31,419 bases of DNA from a virus. Made by a program: the position numbers and the translations under genes. This document shows, in pieces, positions 2,534 to 16,132 of this stretch. Below the pieces are notes generated by a model. The model was given only the letters and a program-made list of their open reading frames with translations, searched no databases and was not told the origin of the DNA. Each line of letters begins with the position of its first letter. The first letter of the stretch is position 1. Where the stretch lies: IMG/VR virus record IMGVR_UViG_3300034072_001408, positions 1 through 31,419 of that record. The stretch is one strand, 5' to 3'.

Positions 2534-3042
2534 GCGGACACCTCCATGCCCAGATCGGCGGGCGCCACGTTCACCAGCTGACCGCCCCCTTGGCTTTGCA
2601 TGTGAGCGATGACGCGCTTCGTAGCGGTGTGCAGCTCAGCGGCGGTAAGCTGGCGCAACTGGTGGTCGTGCAGGTCAACCATGCAGGTGATGGCGTCCAG
2701 CTCGTAATAGCGCAGCGTGGGCGGGTGCCATTGGCTCGTCTCGCTGCCGCGATCCAAGACAGATTTGATGGCGACCAGCGCGGCCTCAATGTGTCCCTGC
2801 ATGCCGCGTACGTAGCCCAGGCGCTCTATCTCCAGCGCGATCAGCATGGTGGTGCGCAGGGTTTGCACCTGCAGTTCTGTTGCCACTCCCTCACGCACGC
2901 GGGTAGCGCAGTGGCGAACTGCATTCATGGTCTCGCGGATTTCTCGCTCGGTGAGGCGGGTGGCGCGCTGCAGGGCCTTGCGCATGGTGTCAGCGGGCAC
3001 GGGCTGGCGGCGTTGGGGGATGCGGTAGCGGGGCAGGCCCAT
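2530..3042 (-). CDS. Conserved phage-type protein, function unknown
   Basis: 170 aa, starting MGLPRYRIPQRRQPVPADTM. A mostly helical region (residues about 20-160) contains REIRETMNAVRHCATRVREG and a second helical part RYYELDAITCMVDLHDHQLR. No catalytic motif recognised. The start at 3042 overlaps the stop of the ParB-like gene by one base (TGATG) and has GGAGGTG upstream. The stop overlaps the ASCH start (ATGA), so translation is probably coupled on both sides. Confidence 0.7.
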   Translation of the reverse strand: MGLPRYRIPQRRQPVPADTMRKALQRATRLTEREIRETMNAVRHCATRVREGVATELQVQTLRTTMLIALEIERLGYVRGMQGHIEAALVAIKSVLDRGSETSQWHPPTLRYYELDAITCMVDLHDHQLRQLTAAELHTATKRVIAHMQSQGGGQLVNVAPADLGMEVSA

Positions 3043-5213
3043 CACACACCTCCCTGCGTGGAGTCGGCGTCCGCAGCCTCCAGCTCGGTGTAGTCCACGG
3101 TCAGTTCTATGGGCTCGGGTTCTTTGCCTGGGAAGGGCCATGGATCAGGAAGCGTTACCACCCACTTGCGACCGCTGGCGCGCACGATGGTGGCTATGTG
3201 ATCCTTGCAGTGGATCACGCCGCTCGACGGGCCTTTGACGTCGCTCTTGAGTTTGACGGTTTGCCCCTCGGTGAAGTTGTTGGGCGTGTCTGCCTGTTGC
3301 ATGGCCTGGGCGATGCCTGCCATCACGTCGGCCTGGCTGGCCTTGCCGGTGCCGTCCACGGCGCCCTTGGCTTTGCCCTTGGGCTTGATGGTGGGCTTGG
3401 CCTTGTCGGCGGGCGCGTCAGGCTGGGCCTCGGCTGCGCGCTCTGCGGCTTCTTCCTTCATCGCGTCTTGTGCGGTGGCCTTGTGATAGCTGGTGTCGAT
3501 GTGGGCCAGCTTCGCAGCGGCGTCTAGCAGCTTGGCCTCGTCGGGTGGGCGTTGAAAGCGTGGCTCTACGTCCACCGTGGCCGCCAGCATGATCAGAGTG
3601 AGGAGCTGAGCCCGAGGGCTGGACTCAGCGCACTGGCGGGCCGCCCGTTCAAGTTCAGCGTCGGTGAACTGTTCGGGCAGATCGAAGATGAGTCGAGCCA
3701 GGGCTTCATCCGCCTCGCGCGCCTCGGCAAGGATGTAGTGATATGCCACCTCGGCGGGCAATTCCACTTCGTCAGGTGTGTCGTTCTGCAGCGACTCGAT
3801 GATCTGCGTGATGGCCGCGCGTCTCCAGCGGCTCTGGTAGTCGGCCTGCAGTTCCTCTTTGGTGGGCTCGGCGGTCTTCTTGGCGGCCTTGCTTGCCGCG
3901 CCCTTGGCCTGCAGCGCTTCCCCTGCAGCACGCACAGGCACTGCCTCTACCACGCCGCCTGTGGGCGTCTCGATCAGCACCACCTTGCCCTGCGGCACTT
4001 CCTGGCCCAGCACTTGGCGCATGGGCTCGGTGTCGCCCTTCTTGGGCTTGTCCAGCAGTATGTAACCCTTGGGTGTGGCGCCTTCCGTGGGCATAAGCTC
4101 GCGGGCTTCGCGGCCCGTGATGATCTTGCGCCCCTTGGCCTGGGCTTCGGCCTTGAGGGCGTCGTAGTGGGCCTCTTTCTTGTCGGCAAAGCAGGCGGTG
4201 TCGGTACAGACGTCTGCACCCGCCTTGTCCCACAGCTCGGGGTTGGCGCCGGTGCGTTTGGGGCACTGAGTGCAGGCGCCAACCTTGGGCAGCAGCTGGG
4301 CGTTGTCCAGGGCGAAGGGCGCCTGGGTGAGGTCGGTCATGTACTGGCGCTGGGCCAGGTCTTTGGCGCTGCGGTAGCTGAGCGGGCCGCCATCGGGGCC
4401 GCCTGTGAGCACCTTCTTGGTGAACTCGGTCTGCAGGGCGGGCGTTGGGCGCTGCGCCACAAGCAAGGCCACACTGCGATTGAGTGCGCCTGACTTGAGG
4501 GCTGCGGTGGCCTCGGGGCAGATGTTGAGCAGGCGCAGGCTTTCGATAACGTGCGTGCGGCTGCGCTTGAGTGCGTCGGCCACGGCATCGCGGGTCAGCT
4601 CAAAGTCATCCACCAGCAACTGGATGCCGTGGGCCTCGTCCAGTGGGTTGAGGTTTTCTCGGTGCAGGTTCTCGATGAGCTGCATGACTACCGCCGCTGT
4701 GTTGTCGGCGTCTTTCATCAGCACGGGCACTTCGCGCAGGCCTGCGATGCGCGCCGCCACAAAGCGGCGCTCGCCCGCGATGATTTCATGCGTAGCGTGG
4801 CGCGTCTCTTCGTCAATGAAGGTGTCTTGCAGCCGCTCGGCAGGCAGGCGCCGCACCAGCAGGGGCTGGAGTACGCCGTAGATCTTCATGGTGGCGGCCA
4901 TTTCCAGCAGGGCTTCGTCTTCCACGATCTGGCGATTGGTTTTGCTGCGCACCAGGGCAGTGAGCGCCAGGGTGCTGCCACCGGGGGCGGTGTGCTCGAT
5001 GGCATCGGCGTCGGGCACAGTGAAATCCGACATGGGCAGCGTCGCAATCGTGTCGCCGCACTGGATTTGGTACTGCCGCCCGCCAGGGGTTTTGCCGATG
5101 ATCTCGCCCTCCTGGCCCGCTTGCGGGTGGGGCTTGCCGCCCTTGAGGGTGGTGGCGTCTTCGTTGATGCGGGCCTTTCGGCCAATGAGTGGGTCTTTGG
5201 TGGCCATGGTCAT
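3042..5213 (-). CDS. Large ParB/RepB/Spo0J-family protein
   Basis: 723 aa from the chosen start, about twice the size of chromosomal ParB. The ParB core is clear: GERRFVAARIAGL at about 147-159 and ENLHRENLNPLDEAHG at about 181-196, followed by a KorB/ParB-type HTH region (about 205-245, LTRDAVADALKRSRTHVIES). A CxxC...C....C cluster (C314, C317, C336, C341) suggests a zinc knuckle. N- and C-terminal segments (10-65 and ~650-715) look like small beta-barrel/KOW-type modules, and the linker at ~590-640 is Lys/Ala/Pro-rich. No ParA partner is in the window, so plasmid-type partitioning is unlikely; a CTP-dependent DNA clamp or nuclease-like role in phage DNA metabolism is an inference. Start 5213 gives an ATGA overlap; 5207 is possible. 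Confidence 0.85.
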   Translation of the reverse strand: MTMATKDPLIGRKARINEDATTLKGGKPHPQAGQEGEIIGKTPGGRQYQIQCGDTIATLPMSDFTVPDADAIEHTAPGGSTLALTALVRSKTNRQIVEDEALLEMAATMKIYGVLQPLLVRRLPAERLQDTFIDEETRHATHEIIAGERRFVAARIAGLREVPVLMKDADNTAAVVMQLIENLHRENLNPLDEAHGIQLLVDDFELTRDAVADALKRSRTHVIESLRLLNICPEATAALKSGALNRSVALLVAQRPTPALQTEFTKKVLTGGPDGGPLSYRSAKDLAQRQYMTDLTQAPFALDNAQLLPKVGACTQCPKRTGANPELWDKAGADVCTDTACFADKKEAHYDALKAEAQAKGRKIITGREARELMPTEGATPKGYILLDKPKKGDTEPMRQVLGQEVPQGKVVLIETPTGGVVEAVPVRAAGEALQAKGAASKAAKKTAEPTKEELQADYQSRWRRAAITQIIESLQNDTPDEVELPAEVAYHYILAEAREADEALARLIFDLPEQFTDAELERAARQCAESSPRAQLLTLIMLAATVDVEPRFQRPPDEAKLLDAAAKLAHIDTSYHKATAQDAMKEEAAERAAEAQPDAPADKAKPTIKPKGKAKGAVDGTGKASQADVMAGIAQAMQQADTPNNFTEGQTVKLKSDVKGPSSGVIHCKDHIATIVRASGRKWVVTLPDPWPFPGKEPEPIELTVDYTELEAADADSTQGGV
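4204..4219. repeat. 16-bp palindrome GTACAGACGTCTGCAC, copy 1
   Basis: A near-perfect dyad with one mismatched pair, extended by one more pair at 4203/4220. It lies inside the ParB-like gene, in the codons of the Cys cluster region. Two further copies are at 18088-18103 and 26590-26605, in unrelated genes and different coding contexts. Confidence 0.75.
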
Positions 5214-5548
5214 GCCGATGTGGTTTTGTTGAAGGCGGTGCGGCTTGGCAGAGCGAATGCATCTGCTGAGCCGTTGCGGTGGGGCCTGGTGCGCAGCTCG
5301 GGGCATGTGTACGGCGCGCCCCCCGTCACGGTGCTGTTGCGTACCGGCTTGTCGGCGCTGGCGACTTCCAGGCGTTCGTCCATGCGGCGCTGTGCTTCTC
5401 GCACCTGGGCGCTGGTGGTCTTGCCGATGGGCTGCAGGCCGTTGGTGCGCAGCGCGGGCGGTGGCCCGTAGATCAAATGCACGCCCGTGGTGTTGGGCTT
5501 CGTCAGGCGCAGGGTGTCTGCCGCTGGGGAAATTGGGCGTCGCTTCAT
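5210..5548 (-). CDS. Hypothetical protein
   Basis: 112 aa, starting MKRRPISPAADTLRLTKPNT; polar and basic, with a helical stretch SAQVREAQRRMDERLEVASA at about 47-66 and a Pro/Thr-rich tail. No recognised domain. The start at 5548 overlaps the upstream stop (ATGA), and the stop overlaps the ParB-like start (ATGA). A longer upstream extension is Arg/Gly/Pro shadow sequence and was not used. It might be an accessory of the ParB-like protein because of the coupling; that is only context. Confidence 0.6.
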   Translation of the reverse strand: MKRRPISPAADTLRLTKPNTTGVHLIYGPPPALRTNGLQPIGKTTSAQVREAQRRMDERLEVASADKPVRNSTVTGGAPYTCPELRTRPHRNGSADAFALPSRTAFNKTTSA

Positions 5549-10616: not shown

Positions 10617-11684
10617 GTGGACAACTATCAGCAAGTGCTTCTGCAGATGCAGGAGTTTGGCATCGAGTTCCGGGACAAAGATTTGCCTCTGGAGATTGAC
10701 ACTCCAAAGAGCAAGACCTGTGGCAAGGGGGGGAAGGATTGGTACAAGCTCTACCTCTTCCGCCGCGACCCGGACAAAGGCGGCGGGACATACGTGGTGG
10801 GCACCTTTGGCACCTATCGCCACGGCGGGGCCAGCCAGAAGGTGCATGTGGAGTGGGCGCCCCTCTCCCCTGAGGAGCGTGCGCGACGGGCTGAGGAGCT
10901 GCGGGCGCAGCGCGTGAAGGCTGCGGTGGAGCGCCGGGCCGAGATTGCCAACGCCATGGCGGAGGCTATTGATGTGTGGCGCCGGGGCGTGAAGGATGGG
11001 CAGTCGCCCTACCTTGAGCGCAAGGGCGTGACTGGTGAGGCCTGCCGCTATCTGGCAGAGCCATTGGTGCTGCGCTGGCCGGGTGAGCCTGGGGAAGAGG
11101 ACACGCGGGTGCATCTGCCTGAGGGGACGGTGCTGGTGCCGTTGCTGCGATATGACTTGCCGCGCGAGGAGGCGCTGCGGGCCCTGCAGTTCATCAGGCC
11201 GGATGGCGCGAAGATCTATCAGCGTGGCATGGACAAGCCCGGCTGCTCCCTGCGGCTCGGCTCTATCGACACCAACACTACCCCGCTGTTGTTGGTGGTG
11301 GAGGGGTATGCAACGGGCCTGACGGCCCGCCAGGCGGTTGACCAGAAGTACCCTGTGTTTGTGGCGCTTGATGCGGGCAACTTGGCGCACGTGGTGCCGC
11401 TGCTGCGCAAGCTGTACCCCTTCACCCGTATTTTGATCCTGGCCGACGACGACTGGATGACGCGCGACAAGGTGTCGGGCGAGTTGACCAACCCTGGCCG
11501 CAACGCCGCAAGGGCCGTAGCCCGCAAGGTGGAAGGGGCGGATTTGGTGTGGCCAATATTCAAGCATGCCACTCGGCAGGAGAAGGACACCGACTTCAAC
11601 GATCTGCAGGCGCGTGAGGGCCTTGATGCGGTGCGCAAGCAGCTGTCTGGCGTGGTCGAGATGATGGCGAGGCGCTATGGCTGA
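10617..11684 (+). CDS. Toprim-domain primase
   Basis: 355 aa, starting with GTG at 10617, two bases after the previous stop, with GGGGAT upstream. The Toprim fold is visible in the C-terminal half: LLLVVEGYATGLT with Glu229 (about 225-236) and LILADDDW with the Asp triad 277-279, then TDFNDLQ (325-331) typical of phage/plasmid primases of the TraC/DUF type. The N-terminal 80 residues (KDWYKLYLFRRDPDKGG, GTFGTYRHG) look like a small binding module. It would synthesise RNA primers for phage DNA replication together with the next gene, which overlaps it by 8 nt. Confidence 0.85.
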   Translation: MDNYQQVLLQMQEFGIEFRDKDLPLEIDTPKSKTCGKGGKDWYKLYLFRRDPDKGGGTYVVGTFGTYRHGGASQKVHVEWAPLSPEERARRAEELRAQRVKAAVERRAEIANAMAEAIDVWRRGVKDGQSPYLERKGVTGEACRYLAEPLVLRWPGEPGEEDTRVHLPEGTVLVPLLRYDLPREEALRALQFIRPDGAKIYQRGMDKPGCSLRLGSIDTNTTPLLLVVEGYATGLTARQAVDQKYPVFVALDAGNLAHVVPLLRKLYPFTRILILADDDWMTRDKVSGELTNPGRNAARAVARKVEGADLVWPIFKHATRQEKDTDFNDLQAREGLDAVRKQLSGVVEMMARRYG

Positions 11685-13380
11685 AATTACGCCAGACAGC
11701 GGCCCACAGGGCGGTGCGGTGGAGCCCGCGCCGCATGCGCGCGAAGACGCGCATGCCTTCGATGCCATCGGCGCGCCAGCGCCGCACGATAGTTCTGTCG
11801 TTCGCGTGGACTTTGGCGCTGGCAAGGGGCAGGGCGGTGGTGCCGGGTCTTCTGACGCTGAAGCCGGTCCCAGCTCGGCCCCGCCCCCCCTCCCCCAAAG
11901 TAGCGCAGCTGCGCTCATGTCGGGGGATGGGGGTGGTGACGCCGGGGAGACTTCTGAGCAGTCTGCCGATGACGTCGCTGACGACAAGCCGGTGCAGGGG
12001 CGCAAGAAGGAAAAGACCATTGATTGGGGGAAGTTCAATCACCTGATCGAGCACTTTGTGCTGATCTACGGCACGGATACCGTGTGGGATGGCTCTGAGC
12101 GGCTGCAGATGAAGATCGCCAATATGGGCCACGCCCATGGCGCCGATATGGTGCGCATGTGGAAGACCAGCGAACGGCGGCGCACTGTGCGGCTGGATGA
12201 CGTGGTGTTTGACCCCACGATGAAGTGCGACCCTGAAACGACGGTGAACCTATACGACGGTATGGCCATGGTGCCCAAGGAGGGCAACGTGGACCCAATC
12301 CTTGACCTGGTTCGCTATCTCACCAGCCGGGCGGCTGAGCATGAGGCGGAGTGCGAGGAGATCATGCATTGGCTGCTGTGCTGGCTGGCCTACCCGCTGC
12401 AGCACCCGGGTGCGAAGCTGCGCACTGCGGTGGTGATGCACGGGGATGAGGGCGCGGGTAAGAACTTTCTGTTCGACATCATGGTGGCGATCTACGGGAA
12501 GTACGGCGCCCTGGTCGGCCAGGATGAGCTGGAAGACAAGTTCAACGACTGGCGCAGCTGCAAGATGTTTGTGGTGGGGGATGAGGTGTCCAGCCGGGCG
12601 GAGTTGGTGCACAACAAGAACCGGCTGAAGGCGCTGATCACGTCGCCCACGGTACAGATCAACCCGAAGAACCTGGCTCGGCGGGAAGAGAAGAACCAGA
12701 TGAACATCGTGTTCCTCTCGAATGAGCTGCAGCCGCTGGCCCTGGATAACTCAGACCGGCGCTACCTGGTGGTGTACACCCCCCGGGCCAAAGACCCTGA
12801 GTATTACCGCAGCCTGGGTGAGTGGCGCGATAACGGGGGCGCTGAGGCGTTCTATCACTTCCTGCTTACATACCCCCTGGATGGCTTCCACCCTTACTCG
12901 CCCGCCCCAATGACTGCGGCGAAGGTGGCTCTGATCGAAATCAACCGCAAGAGCCCTGAGCAGTTCTGGGCTGAATGGTCTGCTGGTGAGCTGGATCTGC
13001 CCTACCAGGCCTGTGCGGTGGATCAGGCGTATTCGGCTTACCTGAAGTGGTGTCAGCGCACGGGCGACCGTTACCCGTTCAAGCGCAATCAGTTCACGCC
13101 CACGCTGACCCGGTTCTCAGAGGGGCAGGGCAGGCCAGCCCGTACCAAGGCAATGAACGTCACCAAGCCCGGCGAGGCAAAGAAGACCACCCGAATGCTG
13201 CTGGTGTCTGAGCCGGTGCTGCGCAAGCCCGATGCCGGGCCTGACGACGTAGCCATGACAGAAGGGGAGTGGGCCACCAGCTCGGTCAGTGACTTCGCAA
13301 TTGCACTGCGCAAGTACATCGGCTATGGCTCGGGCTCCCCCTCCCACGATGGCAGCGATGCCGATGGAGGTGATGAATGA
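11677..13380 (+). CDS. SF3-type replicative helicase (DUF5906-like)
   Basis: 567 aa. Residues 1-110 are low-complexity, Gly/Ala/Pro/Asp-rich and probably disordered. The ATPase core has Walker A GDEGAGKN (256-263), Walker B FVVGDE (298-303) and motif C NIVFLSNE (343-350) with the sensor Asn, the order of superfamily 3 helicases. After residue 440 follows a domain with AYLKWCQRTGDRYPFKRNQF, like the D5/primase C-terminal winged region. With the overlapping Toprim gene it forms a split primase-helicase. The noncoding array follows its stop directly. Confidence 0.85.
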   Translation: MAEITPDSGPQGGAVEPAPHAREDAHAFDAIGAPAPHDSSVVRVDFGAGKGQGGGAGSSDAEAGPSSAPPPLPQSSAAALMSGDGGGDAGETSEQSADDVADDKPVQGRKKEKTIDWGKFNHLIEHFVLIYGTDTVWDGSERLQMKIANMGHAHGADMVRMWKTSERRRTVRLDDVVFDPTMKCDPETTVNLYDGMAMVPKEGNVDPILDLVRYLTSRAAEHEAECEEIMHWLLCWLAYPLQHPGAKLRTAVVMHGDEGAGKNFLFDIMVAIYGKYGALVGQDELEDKFNDWRSCKMFVVGDEVSSRAELVHNKNRLKALITSPTVQINPKNLARREEKNQMNIVFLSNELQPLALDNSDRRYLVVYTPRAKDPEYYRSLGEWRDNGGAEAFYHFLLTYPLDGFHPYSPAPMTAAKVALIEINRKSPEQFWAEWSAGELDLPYQACAVDQAYSAYLKWCQRTGDRYPFKRNQFTPTLTRFSEGQGRPARTKAMNVTKPGEAKKTTRMLLVSEPVLRKPDAGPDDVAMTEGEWATSSVSDFAIALRKYIGYGSGSPSHDGSDADGGDE

Positions 13381-13391
13381 GCGCCCACGGA

Positions 13392-13617
13392 GTTACACGG
13401 TTACGCATGCGCGTAACGCTGAAAGCTAGCACTGGCGCGGGTAGTTACGCGATTACGCAGTTACGCGCCACATGCGTGTGCGTATGTGTGCGGGCATGCA
13501 GGCGGGCGCGTGTGTGCGTGCATGCATGTGTGTGCGTGTGCAGCGTAACCGCGTAATCGCGTAACTCGCTAGGCGTGGCGCGGGTTGTGGCGTTACGCGT
13601 GCGCATAACCGCGTAAC
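13392..13617. repeat. Mirror-symmetric array of twelve RTTACGC elements
   Basis: Forward elements (GTTACGC and one-base variants) start at 13392, 13400, 13444, 13452, 13460 and 13592; reverse elements (GCGTAAC and variants) start at 13411, 13543, 13551, 13559, 13603 and 13611. The six pairs 13392/13611, 13400/13603, 13411/13592, 13444/13559, 13452/13551 and 13460/13543 are all exactly symmetric about 13504.5. The inner triplets (13444-13467 against 13542-13565) match at 22 of 24 positions. The sequence between the elements is not palindromic, so this is an arrangement of binding sites rather than decay of one long palindrome. The centre (about 13470-13541) is mainly alternating TG/CG. Candidate replication origin or packaging/resolution site. 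Confidence 0.85.
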
Positions 13618-13654
13618 TCGTTTCTTGTTTTTTTAAGAAGAAAGGAAAAAGAGA

Positions 13655-13834
13655 ATGGAATGGATCAAGCGAGGTCGGGCGGCTGTCGGCTGGAAAGCTC
13701 AGACCACCGTGGGGCCCCACCCCCCAGTAGGTACTCCCGGAGCACTTCTCCGTGGGGGTAATTCGACCCCCGCGCGCGCATTAGTTGCTGGCGCTGGAAA
13801 AAGTCCGGGATTTAGTCCGGTTTCGGGGAAATAG
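13655..13834 (+). CDS. Possible 59-aa ORF before the small terminase (weak)
   Basis: Starts MEWIKRGRAAVGWKAQTTVG and is rich in Gly, Pro and Ala. AAGGA lies about 9 nt upstream of the ATG and the stop is 4 nt before the small terminase start, which would fit an operon. Against it: low-complexity composition, no recognised family, and its 3' codons are the AGTCCG repeats that may be a packaging site. Confidence 0.25.
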   Translation: MEWIKRGRAAVGWKAQTTVGPHPPVGTPGALLRGGNSTPARALVAGAGKSPGFSPVSGK

Positions 13835-13838
13835 TCCG
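13802..13838. repeat. Three AGTCCG repeats immediately before the small terminase
   Basis: AGTCCG occurs at 13802-13807, 13814-13819 and 13833-13838; the second and third are in the longer context TAGTCCG. The last ends at the base before the small-terminase ATG. In lambda-type cos phages the small terminase binds three R repeats just upstream of its own gene; the position and number here are similar. This is a candidate cosB-like site by analogy only. Confidence 0.5.
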
Positions 13839-14411
13839 ATGGCTGTGCAGCTCATGAGCAAGGCGGCCTACGCGCGGCACCGTGGCTGCGATGAAAAGGC
13901 CGTGCGTAAGGCCATCACCGACGGGCGGATCAGCACCATCGGCGGGAAGATCGACCCCGAAGTGGCGGACATCCAGTGGGCAAAGAACACCCGCGCTCGG
14001 GCCGATAGCAAGCGCACGGGCGGGGGCGCGGCCATTGATGCCGGTTCCCCCTTGCTCGATGCCGAAACACCCGCCAGCGGCCCGGATGCAGCGCCCGGTG
14101 CGCCTGCCTCGCCCGGGTATGCCGATTACCGCGCAATGCGCGAGAAGGCCGACGCCGAAATGGCAGTGCGCGCCAACCTGAAAGACGCGGGCCTGCTGGT
14201 CGAGCGTGCCCATGTCCAGCGCGGCACCTTCGATGTGGTGCGTGCCTTCCGCGACTCGGTGATGGTCATCGGCCAGCGCGCCGCCCCTCGATGCATCGGA
14301 CTTGCCGACTCCCGCGAGATCGAGCACGTGATCGTTGATGAAACCCGCAAGGCGCTGGAGGGCTTCGAGGCCCGCATGGCTGCGCTGTTGCCTAACAAGG
14401 AAGTCACCTGA
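13839..14411 (+). CDS. Small terminase subunit (candidate)
   Basis: 190 aa. The N-terminus is a compact HTH (MSKAAYARHRGCDEKAVRKA, then ITDGRISTIGGKIDPEVADI), typical of Nu1/DUF1441-like small terminases. A Pro/Gly/Ala linker follows (about 75-105), then a helical oligomerisation part with YADYRAMREKADAEMAVRAN and a C-terminal helix ending in MAALLPNKEV. The start at 13839 has GGGGA ~10 nt upstream; an in-frame TTG at 13785 was rejected. It would recognise phage DNA and load the large subunit. The stop overlaps the methyltransferase start by one base. Confidence 0.8.
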   Translation: MAVQLMSKAAYARHRGCDEKAVRKAITDGRISTIGGKIDPEVADIQWAKNTRARADSKRTGGGAAIDAGSPLLDAETPASGPDAAPGAPASPGYADYRAMREKADAEMAVRANLKDAGLLVERAHVQRGTFDVVRAFRDSVMVIGQRAAPRCIGLADSREIEHVIVDETRKALEGFEARMAALLPNKEVT

Positions 14412-16132
14412 TGCAGAACCCTCAATTCATCCTCGGTCTGGACGATGAGCTGCTGGTCGATGAGTTCGCCTGCGGCGGCGGCATGTCTGAAACCATTGAG
14501 CAGGCCACTGGTCGCCACGTGGATATTGCCGTCAACCACGATGAAGACGCCTGCAGCATGCACGCGGCCAATCACCCCCAGACCGAGCACCACTGGAAGG
14601 ATGTGTTCGAGGTATGCCCGCGCCGGGCTACCAAGGGCCGCGCCGTTGGGTTGTTGCACCTCTCGCCCGATTGCACCCACCACAGCCAGGCACGGGGCGG
14701 CCAGCCACGCAGCAAGAAGCTGCGCGGCCTTGCCTGGATCGGCGTGCGCTGGGCCGGGATCAAGCGGCCGCGCATCATCACGCTGGAGAACGTCAAGCAG
14801 ATCCTCCAGTGGGGGCCGCTGATCGCCAAGCGTTGCCCGAAGACGGGCCGGGTGGTGAAGCTCGACGGCACCGTGGCCGTCGAGGGTGAGCGCGTGCCAG
14901 TGCAGCAGCAGCACCTGGTGCCAGACCCACGGCACGCGGGGCGCACCTGGCGCGCGTTTGTTCGGGCGCTGGAGCACCTGGGCTACACGGTCGAGGCCCG
15001 TGTGCTGTGCGCCGCCGACTACGGCGCCCCCACCACGCGCAGCCGCCTGTTCATGGTCGCGCGCTGCGACGGCGCCCCAATCGTGTGGCCTGAACCCACC
15101 CACTTCAAGAACCCTGCCAAAGGCCAGAAGCGCTGGCGCTCCGCAGCCGAGTGCATCGACTGGAGCATCCCTGGCAAGAGCATCTTTGAGCGCGAAAAGC
15201 CGCTGGCCGACGCCACGCTGCGCAGAGTCGCACACGGCATGAAGCGGTACGTCCTGGACAGCGCCGACCCTTTCATCGTGCAGATCGCCAACTGGTCGCG
15301 CGATGGTGTCACCAGTGCCCGCGATCCCCTCTCAACCGTCACAGCGTGGCCGCGCGGTGGGTCGCATGCGGTTGTTGCCCCTGTGATGGTCCAAGCAGGC
15401 CACGGTCAGGGCACCCCAGATGCCCCCCGCTGGAGCCACGGCAACAAGAGCGTGCGCGAACCTGTGGGCACGGTTACCGCCAGCGGCGGCGGCCAGGCCG
15501 TGGCACTAGGCACGCTGGTGCAGATGGGCTACGGGGAACGCGAAGGCCAGGCCCCGCGCGCCCTTGATGCGCGCCAGCCCCTGGGCACCGTTGTGGGGGC
15601 GGGCAAATTCGCTGCCGTCACTGCGTTTGTCGAACAGGCCAACGGCGGCTTCAACGCCACCCCTGCCCGCGATGCGCGCGATCCACTCTCCACCAGTACC
15701 GCCACGGGCTCACAGCAGCGGCTTGTCACGGCCACAGTGGTGGAGCCGACCCTTACGCCCAGCCAGGAAGAGGGCGCACTCCGTTGCGCAGCCTTCCTGA
15801 TCCGCTACTACGGCCAGGGCGGGCAGCTCGGCGATATGCGTGAGCCCATGTCCACCAGCACCACCAAAGACCGCCTTGCGCTGGTCACGGTGTGGCTGCG
15901 CGGCACGCCCTATGTCATCGTGGATATCCAGCTGCGCATGCTCACCCCGCGCGAGCTGTACAACGCCAACGGCTTCCCCAAGACCTACATCATCGACCGG
16001 GGCCATGACGGGCGTGTGTTCAGCAAGTCCACCCAGGTGCGCATGTGTGGCAACGCTGTTCCGCCGCCTCTGGGGCGTGCTGTGATCGAGGCGAACTGGG
16101 ACAGCAAGGTTCCGATGAGGAAGGCTGCATGA
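14411..16132 (+). CDS. DNA cytosine-5 methyltransferase
   Basis: 573 aa. C5-methyltransferase motifs in order: I (VDEFACGGGMSE, about 16-27), IV with catalytic Cys88 in SPDCTHHSQ (the phage variant of PPC), VI ENV (126-128), VIII APTTRSRLF (206-214), IX RMLTPRELY and X GNAVPPPLG (547-555). The target-recognition region (about 300-490) holds five copies of R-x-P-L/V/M-S/G-T-x-T/V at 304, 349, 388, 423 and 477. It appears intact and active. No restriction partner is present, so it most likely protects phage DNA from host restriction or marks it. It sits between the small and large terminase genes, coupled to both by overlapping start and stop codons. Confidence 0.93.
   Translation: MQNPQFILGLDDELLVDEFACGGGMSETIEQATGRHVDIAVNHDEDACSMHAANHPQTEHHWKDVFEVCPRRATKGRAVGLLHLSPDCTHHSQARGGQPRSKKLRGLAWIGVRWAGIKRPRIITLENVKQILQWGPLIAKRCPKTGRVVKLDGTVAVEGERVPVQQQHLVPDPRHAGRTWRAFVRALEHLGYTVEARVLCAADYGAPTTRSRLFMVARCDGAPIVWPEPTHFKNPAKGQKRWRSAAECIDWSIPGKSIFEREKPLADATLRRVAHGMKRYVLDSADPFIVQIANWSRDGVTSARDPLSTVTAWPRGGSHAVVAPVMVQAGHGQGTPDAPRWSHGNKSVREPVGTVTASGGGQAVALGTLVQMGYGEREGQAPRALDARQPLGTVVGAGKFAAVTAFVEQANGGFNATPARDARDPLSTSTATGSQQRLVTATVVEPTLTPSQEEGALRCAAFLIRYYGQGGQLGDMREPMSTSTTKDRLALVTVWLRGTPYVIVDIQLRMLTPRELYNANGFPKTYIIDRGHDGRVFSKSTQVRMCGNAVPPPLGRAVIEANWDSKVPMRKAA

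Follow-up and report, generated by a model that had tools for sequence, protein, structure and literature searches.

The segment at positions 13392–13617 is very probably the replication origin of a complete temperate phage, loaded by the helicase which is encoded immediately beside it. It lies in a window of 31,419 nucleotides, the whole stretch of DNA that we analysed (IMG/VR record IMGVR_UViG_3300034072_001408). Our description of the sites, their geometry, their conservation, their linkage to the helicase and the fold class of that helicase is drawn from sequence. A preliminary description had proposed three candidates, a bidirectional replication origin, a cos/packaging site and a resolution site; our analysis favours the origin and lent no support to packaging or resolution. 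The features concerned are:

10617–11684, plus strand: Toprim primase, a separate gene from the helicase here
11677–13380, plus strand: initiator helicase, DUF5906/VapE-like, with an NrS-1/SaPI5-PriRep1-like fold, 567 aa
13392–13466, plus strand: left half-site; outer triplet at 13392+ (GTTACAC, 1 mismatch), 13400+ and 13411−, inner triplet at 13444+, 13452+ and 13460+
13418–13443, plus strand: left linker, containing AGCACTGGCGCGG
13467–13542, no strand: central spacer, 64% GC, 91% alternating purine-pyrimidine steps
13543–13617, minus strand: right half-site; inner triplet at 13543−, 13551− and 13559−, outer triplet at 13592+, 13603− (GTTATGC, 1 mismatch) and 13611−
13566–13591, plus strand: right linker, GCTAGGCGTGGCGCGGGTT
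13618–13655, no strand: AT-rich flank, 74% AT
13785–14411, plus strand: small terminase gene (terS), true start probably ATG 13839
13802–13838, plus strand: three AGTCCG(G) repeats, immediately before terS and outside the mirrored array

Twelve RTTACGC-type elements make up the array, ten of them exact and two with one mismatch. The first begins 12 bp past the helicase stop (13380), and the array occupies the interval between this stop and terS, approximately 220 bp upstream of the latter. The geometry of the right half-site is an exact inverted copy of the left, with each half containing one reversed site (13411− in the left, 13592+ in the right). Six mirrored pairs had been described about position 13504.5, and we confirmed that all six fall on that centre, with spacings of 8, 11, 33, 8 and 8. 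Exact RTTACGC was found 15 times in the window, against 3.1 expected and a count reached by no shuffle, and 10 of these 15 fall within 218 bp. When six oriented elements were placed randomly against the other six, a maximum of 4 pairs shared a common centre in 200,000 trials. Across 18 loci the elements were 89% mirror-complementary, compared to 43% for the linkers and 40% for the centre, showing that the array is not one long palindrome and bearing out the earlier statement that the sequence between the elements is not palindromic. The two linkers share a direct repeat (21 nt at 81%), and the right linker carries no mirrored copy of the AGCACTGGCGCGG motif. A search for DNA similarity between the array region and sequenced phages found none. 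A 59-codon open frame crosses the array (13377–13556), and frames lying on the arrays of Stenotrophomonas phage S1 (gp2, 2454–2804) and Halomonas phage H4907 (WJZ48887.1) are annotated as hypothetical proteins; these open frames are probably spurious.

We used the 567-aa helicase as a query and obtained 21 loci from Acidovorax, Paracidovorax, Comamonas, Polaromonas, Aquabacterium and IMG/VR contigs, in all of which an array lies directly behind the helicase gene. Geometry was scored on the 5-mer core RTTAY in 18 distinct loci, including the window, whose helicases are 62–100% identical. The start offsets of the 5-mers within each half (8, 13, 31, 8 and 8) were invariant across these 18 loci; a few loci had lost one site by mutation, and no insertions or deletions were seen inside the halves. 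The gap between the halves was 58, 74, 76, 78, 80, 82 or 84 bp, an even number in every case, which may simply mean that the alternating purine-pyrimidine spacer gains and loses dinucleotides. As the spacing within halves is invariant and the gap is variable, the array consists of two rigid inverted six-site half-sites rather than being built about one fixed centre. The half-site is the conserved unit, and a common centre arises simply because two identical halves are present in inverted orientation, so that the single exact centre previously emphasised is true of the window but is not itself conserved. The spacing in these relatives strongly supports the proposal that the position of the elements is under selection, as it would be if a complex loads on two sides; this proposal was to fail if related phages with the same helicase lacked the symmetric spacing, and they keep it. 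In one locus (L013) the spacer is largely unrelated (69% alternating) and both half-sites are intact, which indicates that the spacer sequence is not strictly required.

Arrays are also found in the same place, directly behind the helicase stop, where the helicases are only 30–40% identical to ours and the elements are different. These phages include Halomonas H4907, Stenotrophomonas S1 and Pseudomonas PG1, pAN, Lodos, Presto and KT1, with elements such as TCAGACA or TCCGACA, GTGCGGG, GTGTTGGGT and GGTTAGGGT. Using an array score based on a 7-mer repeated in both orientations, with a threshold of 6 or more, we detected arrays in 65 of 85 dereplicated helicase-downstream regions versus 1 of 937 control windows from the same loci. 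The S1-type arrays have two half-sites of 3 + 3 sites each, the left being mirrored with a deviation of no more than 1 bp, and there is one additional site. The inner inverted sites are retained in Pseudomonas- and Halomonas-type arrays, whose outer right sites have the opposite orientation. Taken together these layouts show an inner inverted core which is conserved across lineages and outer sites which vary by type. Near matches to the AGCACTGGCGCGG motif occur in several Pseudomonas-type arrays. No array was found directly downstream of the helicase of Detrevirus JM2 (29% identical), and the family is therefore limited. For many phages the position of these arrays gives a simple rule for finding the origin: directly behind this helicase gene.

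In every array type the linkage is to the helicase and not to the terminase. The helicase model (pLDDT 77, with approximately the first 108 residues disordered) matched best in Foldseek to the C-terminal region of NrS-1 polymerase, with SaPI5 PriRep1 next among bacterial and phage proteins (7ola, 7om0 and 7pds; E 4e−11 to 6e−9). In many relatives a single fused protein carries both the helicase and the primase part. The C-terminal domain (residues ~426–548) was modelled at pLDDT 87 as helices followed by a beta hairpin and is predicted to be winged-helix-like; its best solved neighbours were Cdc6 in ORC-DNA and the P4 origin-binding domain 1ka8, which are weak matches, all with E > 0.001. A profile match of this domain to residues 717–759 of the SaPI5 primase-helicase was sub-threshold (E 0.44) and was discounted. 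The identity of the repeats diverges in step with the helicase (r ~0.87), and the C-terminal domain accounts for further variation beyond the helicase core (partial r 0.37, 0 of 2000 permutations). However, divergence of the core and of the C-terminal domain is nearly collinear (r 0.94), and co-divergence alone can therefore not single out the C-terminal domain. We propose the winged-helix-like C-terminal domain of the helicase as the element binder.

The preliminary description knew of no phage site with such a layout, a statement which has to be corrected, as a very similar layout is on record for the origins of SaPIs and PICIs (PMC6092414, PMC7581432). The origins of SaPIbov1, SaPI5 and EcCICFT073, which use Rep/Pri-Rep helicases, likewise lie directly 3' of the initiator helicase gene and likewise have two sets of short iterons around a centre. 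The C-terminal domain of SaPI Rep binds iterons directly downstream of its own gene, apparently as two hexamers (PMC7581432), and Gram-negative PICI origins always have two iteron sets around an AT-rich region (PMC6092414). The initiator helicases are of the same fold class as ours and have a C-terminal DNA-binding domain, which here is only modelled. The array is a variant of these helicase-adjacent iteron origins, sharing their location, two-set layout and initiator class. It differs in having six sites per half and a base-exact mirror geometry including one reversed site, in the primase being split from the helicase, and in its centre, which is GC-rich with alternating purines and pyrimidines whereas the SaPI/PICI centre is AT-rich. 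In addition, PICIs are satellites, whereas this is a complete tailed phage with TerL, portal, head protease, major head and tape-measure genes. The SCCmec helicase Cch2 is of a related class and its C-terminal domain binds an origin immediately downstream of its gene (PMC7581432), but that origin has only three AAGTG iterons, without mirrored six-site halves.

Phage P4 (ori plus crr, alpha) likewise combines a helicase-primase initiator with multiple short sites; its alpha is a single fused protein, whereas primase and helicase are separate here, and has a winged-helix origin-binding domain to which the C-terminal domain of our helicase is weakly matched (1ka8). P4 replication requires two separate regions. 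Its two iteron regions contrast with the one RTTACGC cluster in our 31.4 kb, a record which may be incomplete. Non-coding origins in complete phages are not new as a general idea, since one is known from the replication module of Streptococcus thermophilus phage Sfi21 (PMC6356513). The comparison with Sfi21 covers the presence of a non-coding ori in the replication module. We know of no mirrored six-site halves in the Sfi21 ori. What is new is the precise six-plus-six mirrored half-sites and their breadth across temperate phages of Gram-negative hosts. The SaPI/PICI-like organisation found in complete temperate phages (Acidovorax/Comamonas, Stenotrophomonas, Pseudomonas and Halomonas) connects the replicons of satellites with those of phages.

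We infer that the helicase binds the sites, with one hexamer per half and bidirectional firing. Each half would present six rigidly set sites to the C-terminal domain of the helicase; six subunits on one half would assemble a helicase ring there, and on the inverted second half another ring would form, oriented towards the first. Two forks could then depart in opposite directions from the resulting complex of two hexamers, with primers made by the primase encoded next to the helicase. Two rings starting two forks are proposed by analogy with SaPI, PICI, Cch2 and NrS-1, and NrS-1, the nearest solved relative of the helicase, forms a hexameric ring (PMC7102993). The agreement between six sites per half and the number of ring subunits is suggestive of one hexamer per half. 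The rigid six-plus-six geometry gives a testable count of initiator subunits per origin and bears on the assembly of self-loading hexameric helicases. More tentatively, and with less than even confidence, we suggest that the half-site might be a DNA template for exactly one hexamer, its six sites at the fixed 8-11-33-8-8 spacing placing six subunits and the two inverted templates placing two rings face to face, with melting via a Z-DNA-prone GC-rich centre or the AT-rich flank outside instead of an AT-rich element in the middle; if true, replicative helicases of phages would here have a distinct, countable way of loading themselves.

As the centre is GC-rich, melting must begin elsewhere or be forced. 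The spacer has an AT content of 36%, an AT-rich melting region between iteron sets is absent here, and no other 76-mer in the window exceeded the alternation score of the spacer. The weakest duplex downstream of the helicase is the flank at 13618–13655, outside the array on the right, a position which is conserved in close relatives; this flank is a candidate unwinding element and/or ribosome-binding region of the small ORF that follows. Arrays of the Pseudomonas and Halomonas types are usually weakest in the interval that separates the inner from the outer sites on the right, and in Moraxella Mcat7 an AT-rich stretch is present in the middle of the array. No DnaA boxes were found in the window. 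The GC skew of the window has no origin-like minimum at the array; the cumulative skew climbs to a peak near 15.0 kb and declines thereafter, a polarity opposite to the one expected of a simple bidirectional origin. Skew was therefore not used as evidence for one. The skews of S1, PG1 and H4907 also had no clear extremum at the array.

The array could instead be a control region between the helicase and late genes, composed of repressor operators or a terminator/attenuator hairpin, as its intergenic location and the possible ribosome-binding site in the AT-rich flank that follows would allow. We consider this very unlikely: complementarity is restricted to the elements, which does not make a long hairpin, there is no Rfam match at the array, and the array accompanies the helicase across phages whose downstream genes differ. 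A helicase bound at the array could nevertheless have an additional regulatory role.

It is also highly improbable that the array is a cos/pac site at which the small terminase binds the mirrored elements and starts packaging, despite its position upstream of terS. Separate repeats immediately before terS swap with the type of TerS, AGTCCG occurring with TerS ...YARHRGCDEKAVRKAI and GTGAAC with TerS ...YARRRGVAKSAVAKAV, a pairing which was consistent in every locus where either TerS type was recognised. The GTTAC array does not track TerS and is unchanged while TerS type and repeats swap, a swap which is seen between the window and a locus (L001) with a 94% identical helicase. In PG1 and H4907 the array and terS are separated by lysis and other genes, and in other phages terS is kilobases away. 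The AGTCCG(G)/GTGAAC repeats are themselves likely to be TerS-binding (cosB-like) sites with matched specificity, judging from this pairing. Most close loci share a conserved block upstream of terS, at 13720–13780 in the window (around ggtactcc...ggggtaattcgacccccgcgc), and this block is a candidate cos region.

The least credible alternative is a partition or resolution site for a recombinase or for the ParB-like protein of the phage (754 aa, 3042–5306, minus strand), whose gene is present in the window and in 9 of 10 related records but lies far from the array, is lacking from one array-bearing record (possibly a fragment) and is not annotated in the complete array-bearing genomes of S1, PG1 and H4907, while the array follows the helicase and its element sequence changes along with it.

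Elsewhere in the window, a C5-cytosine methyltransferase gene (14411–16132) separates the small terminase gene from the large one. The only Rfam match in the window was a tRNA at 49–122, which adjoins the integrase gene (185–1375) and is a probable attachment site.
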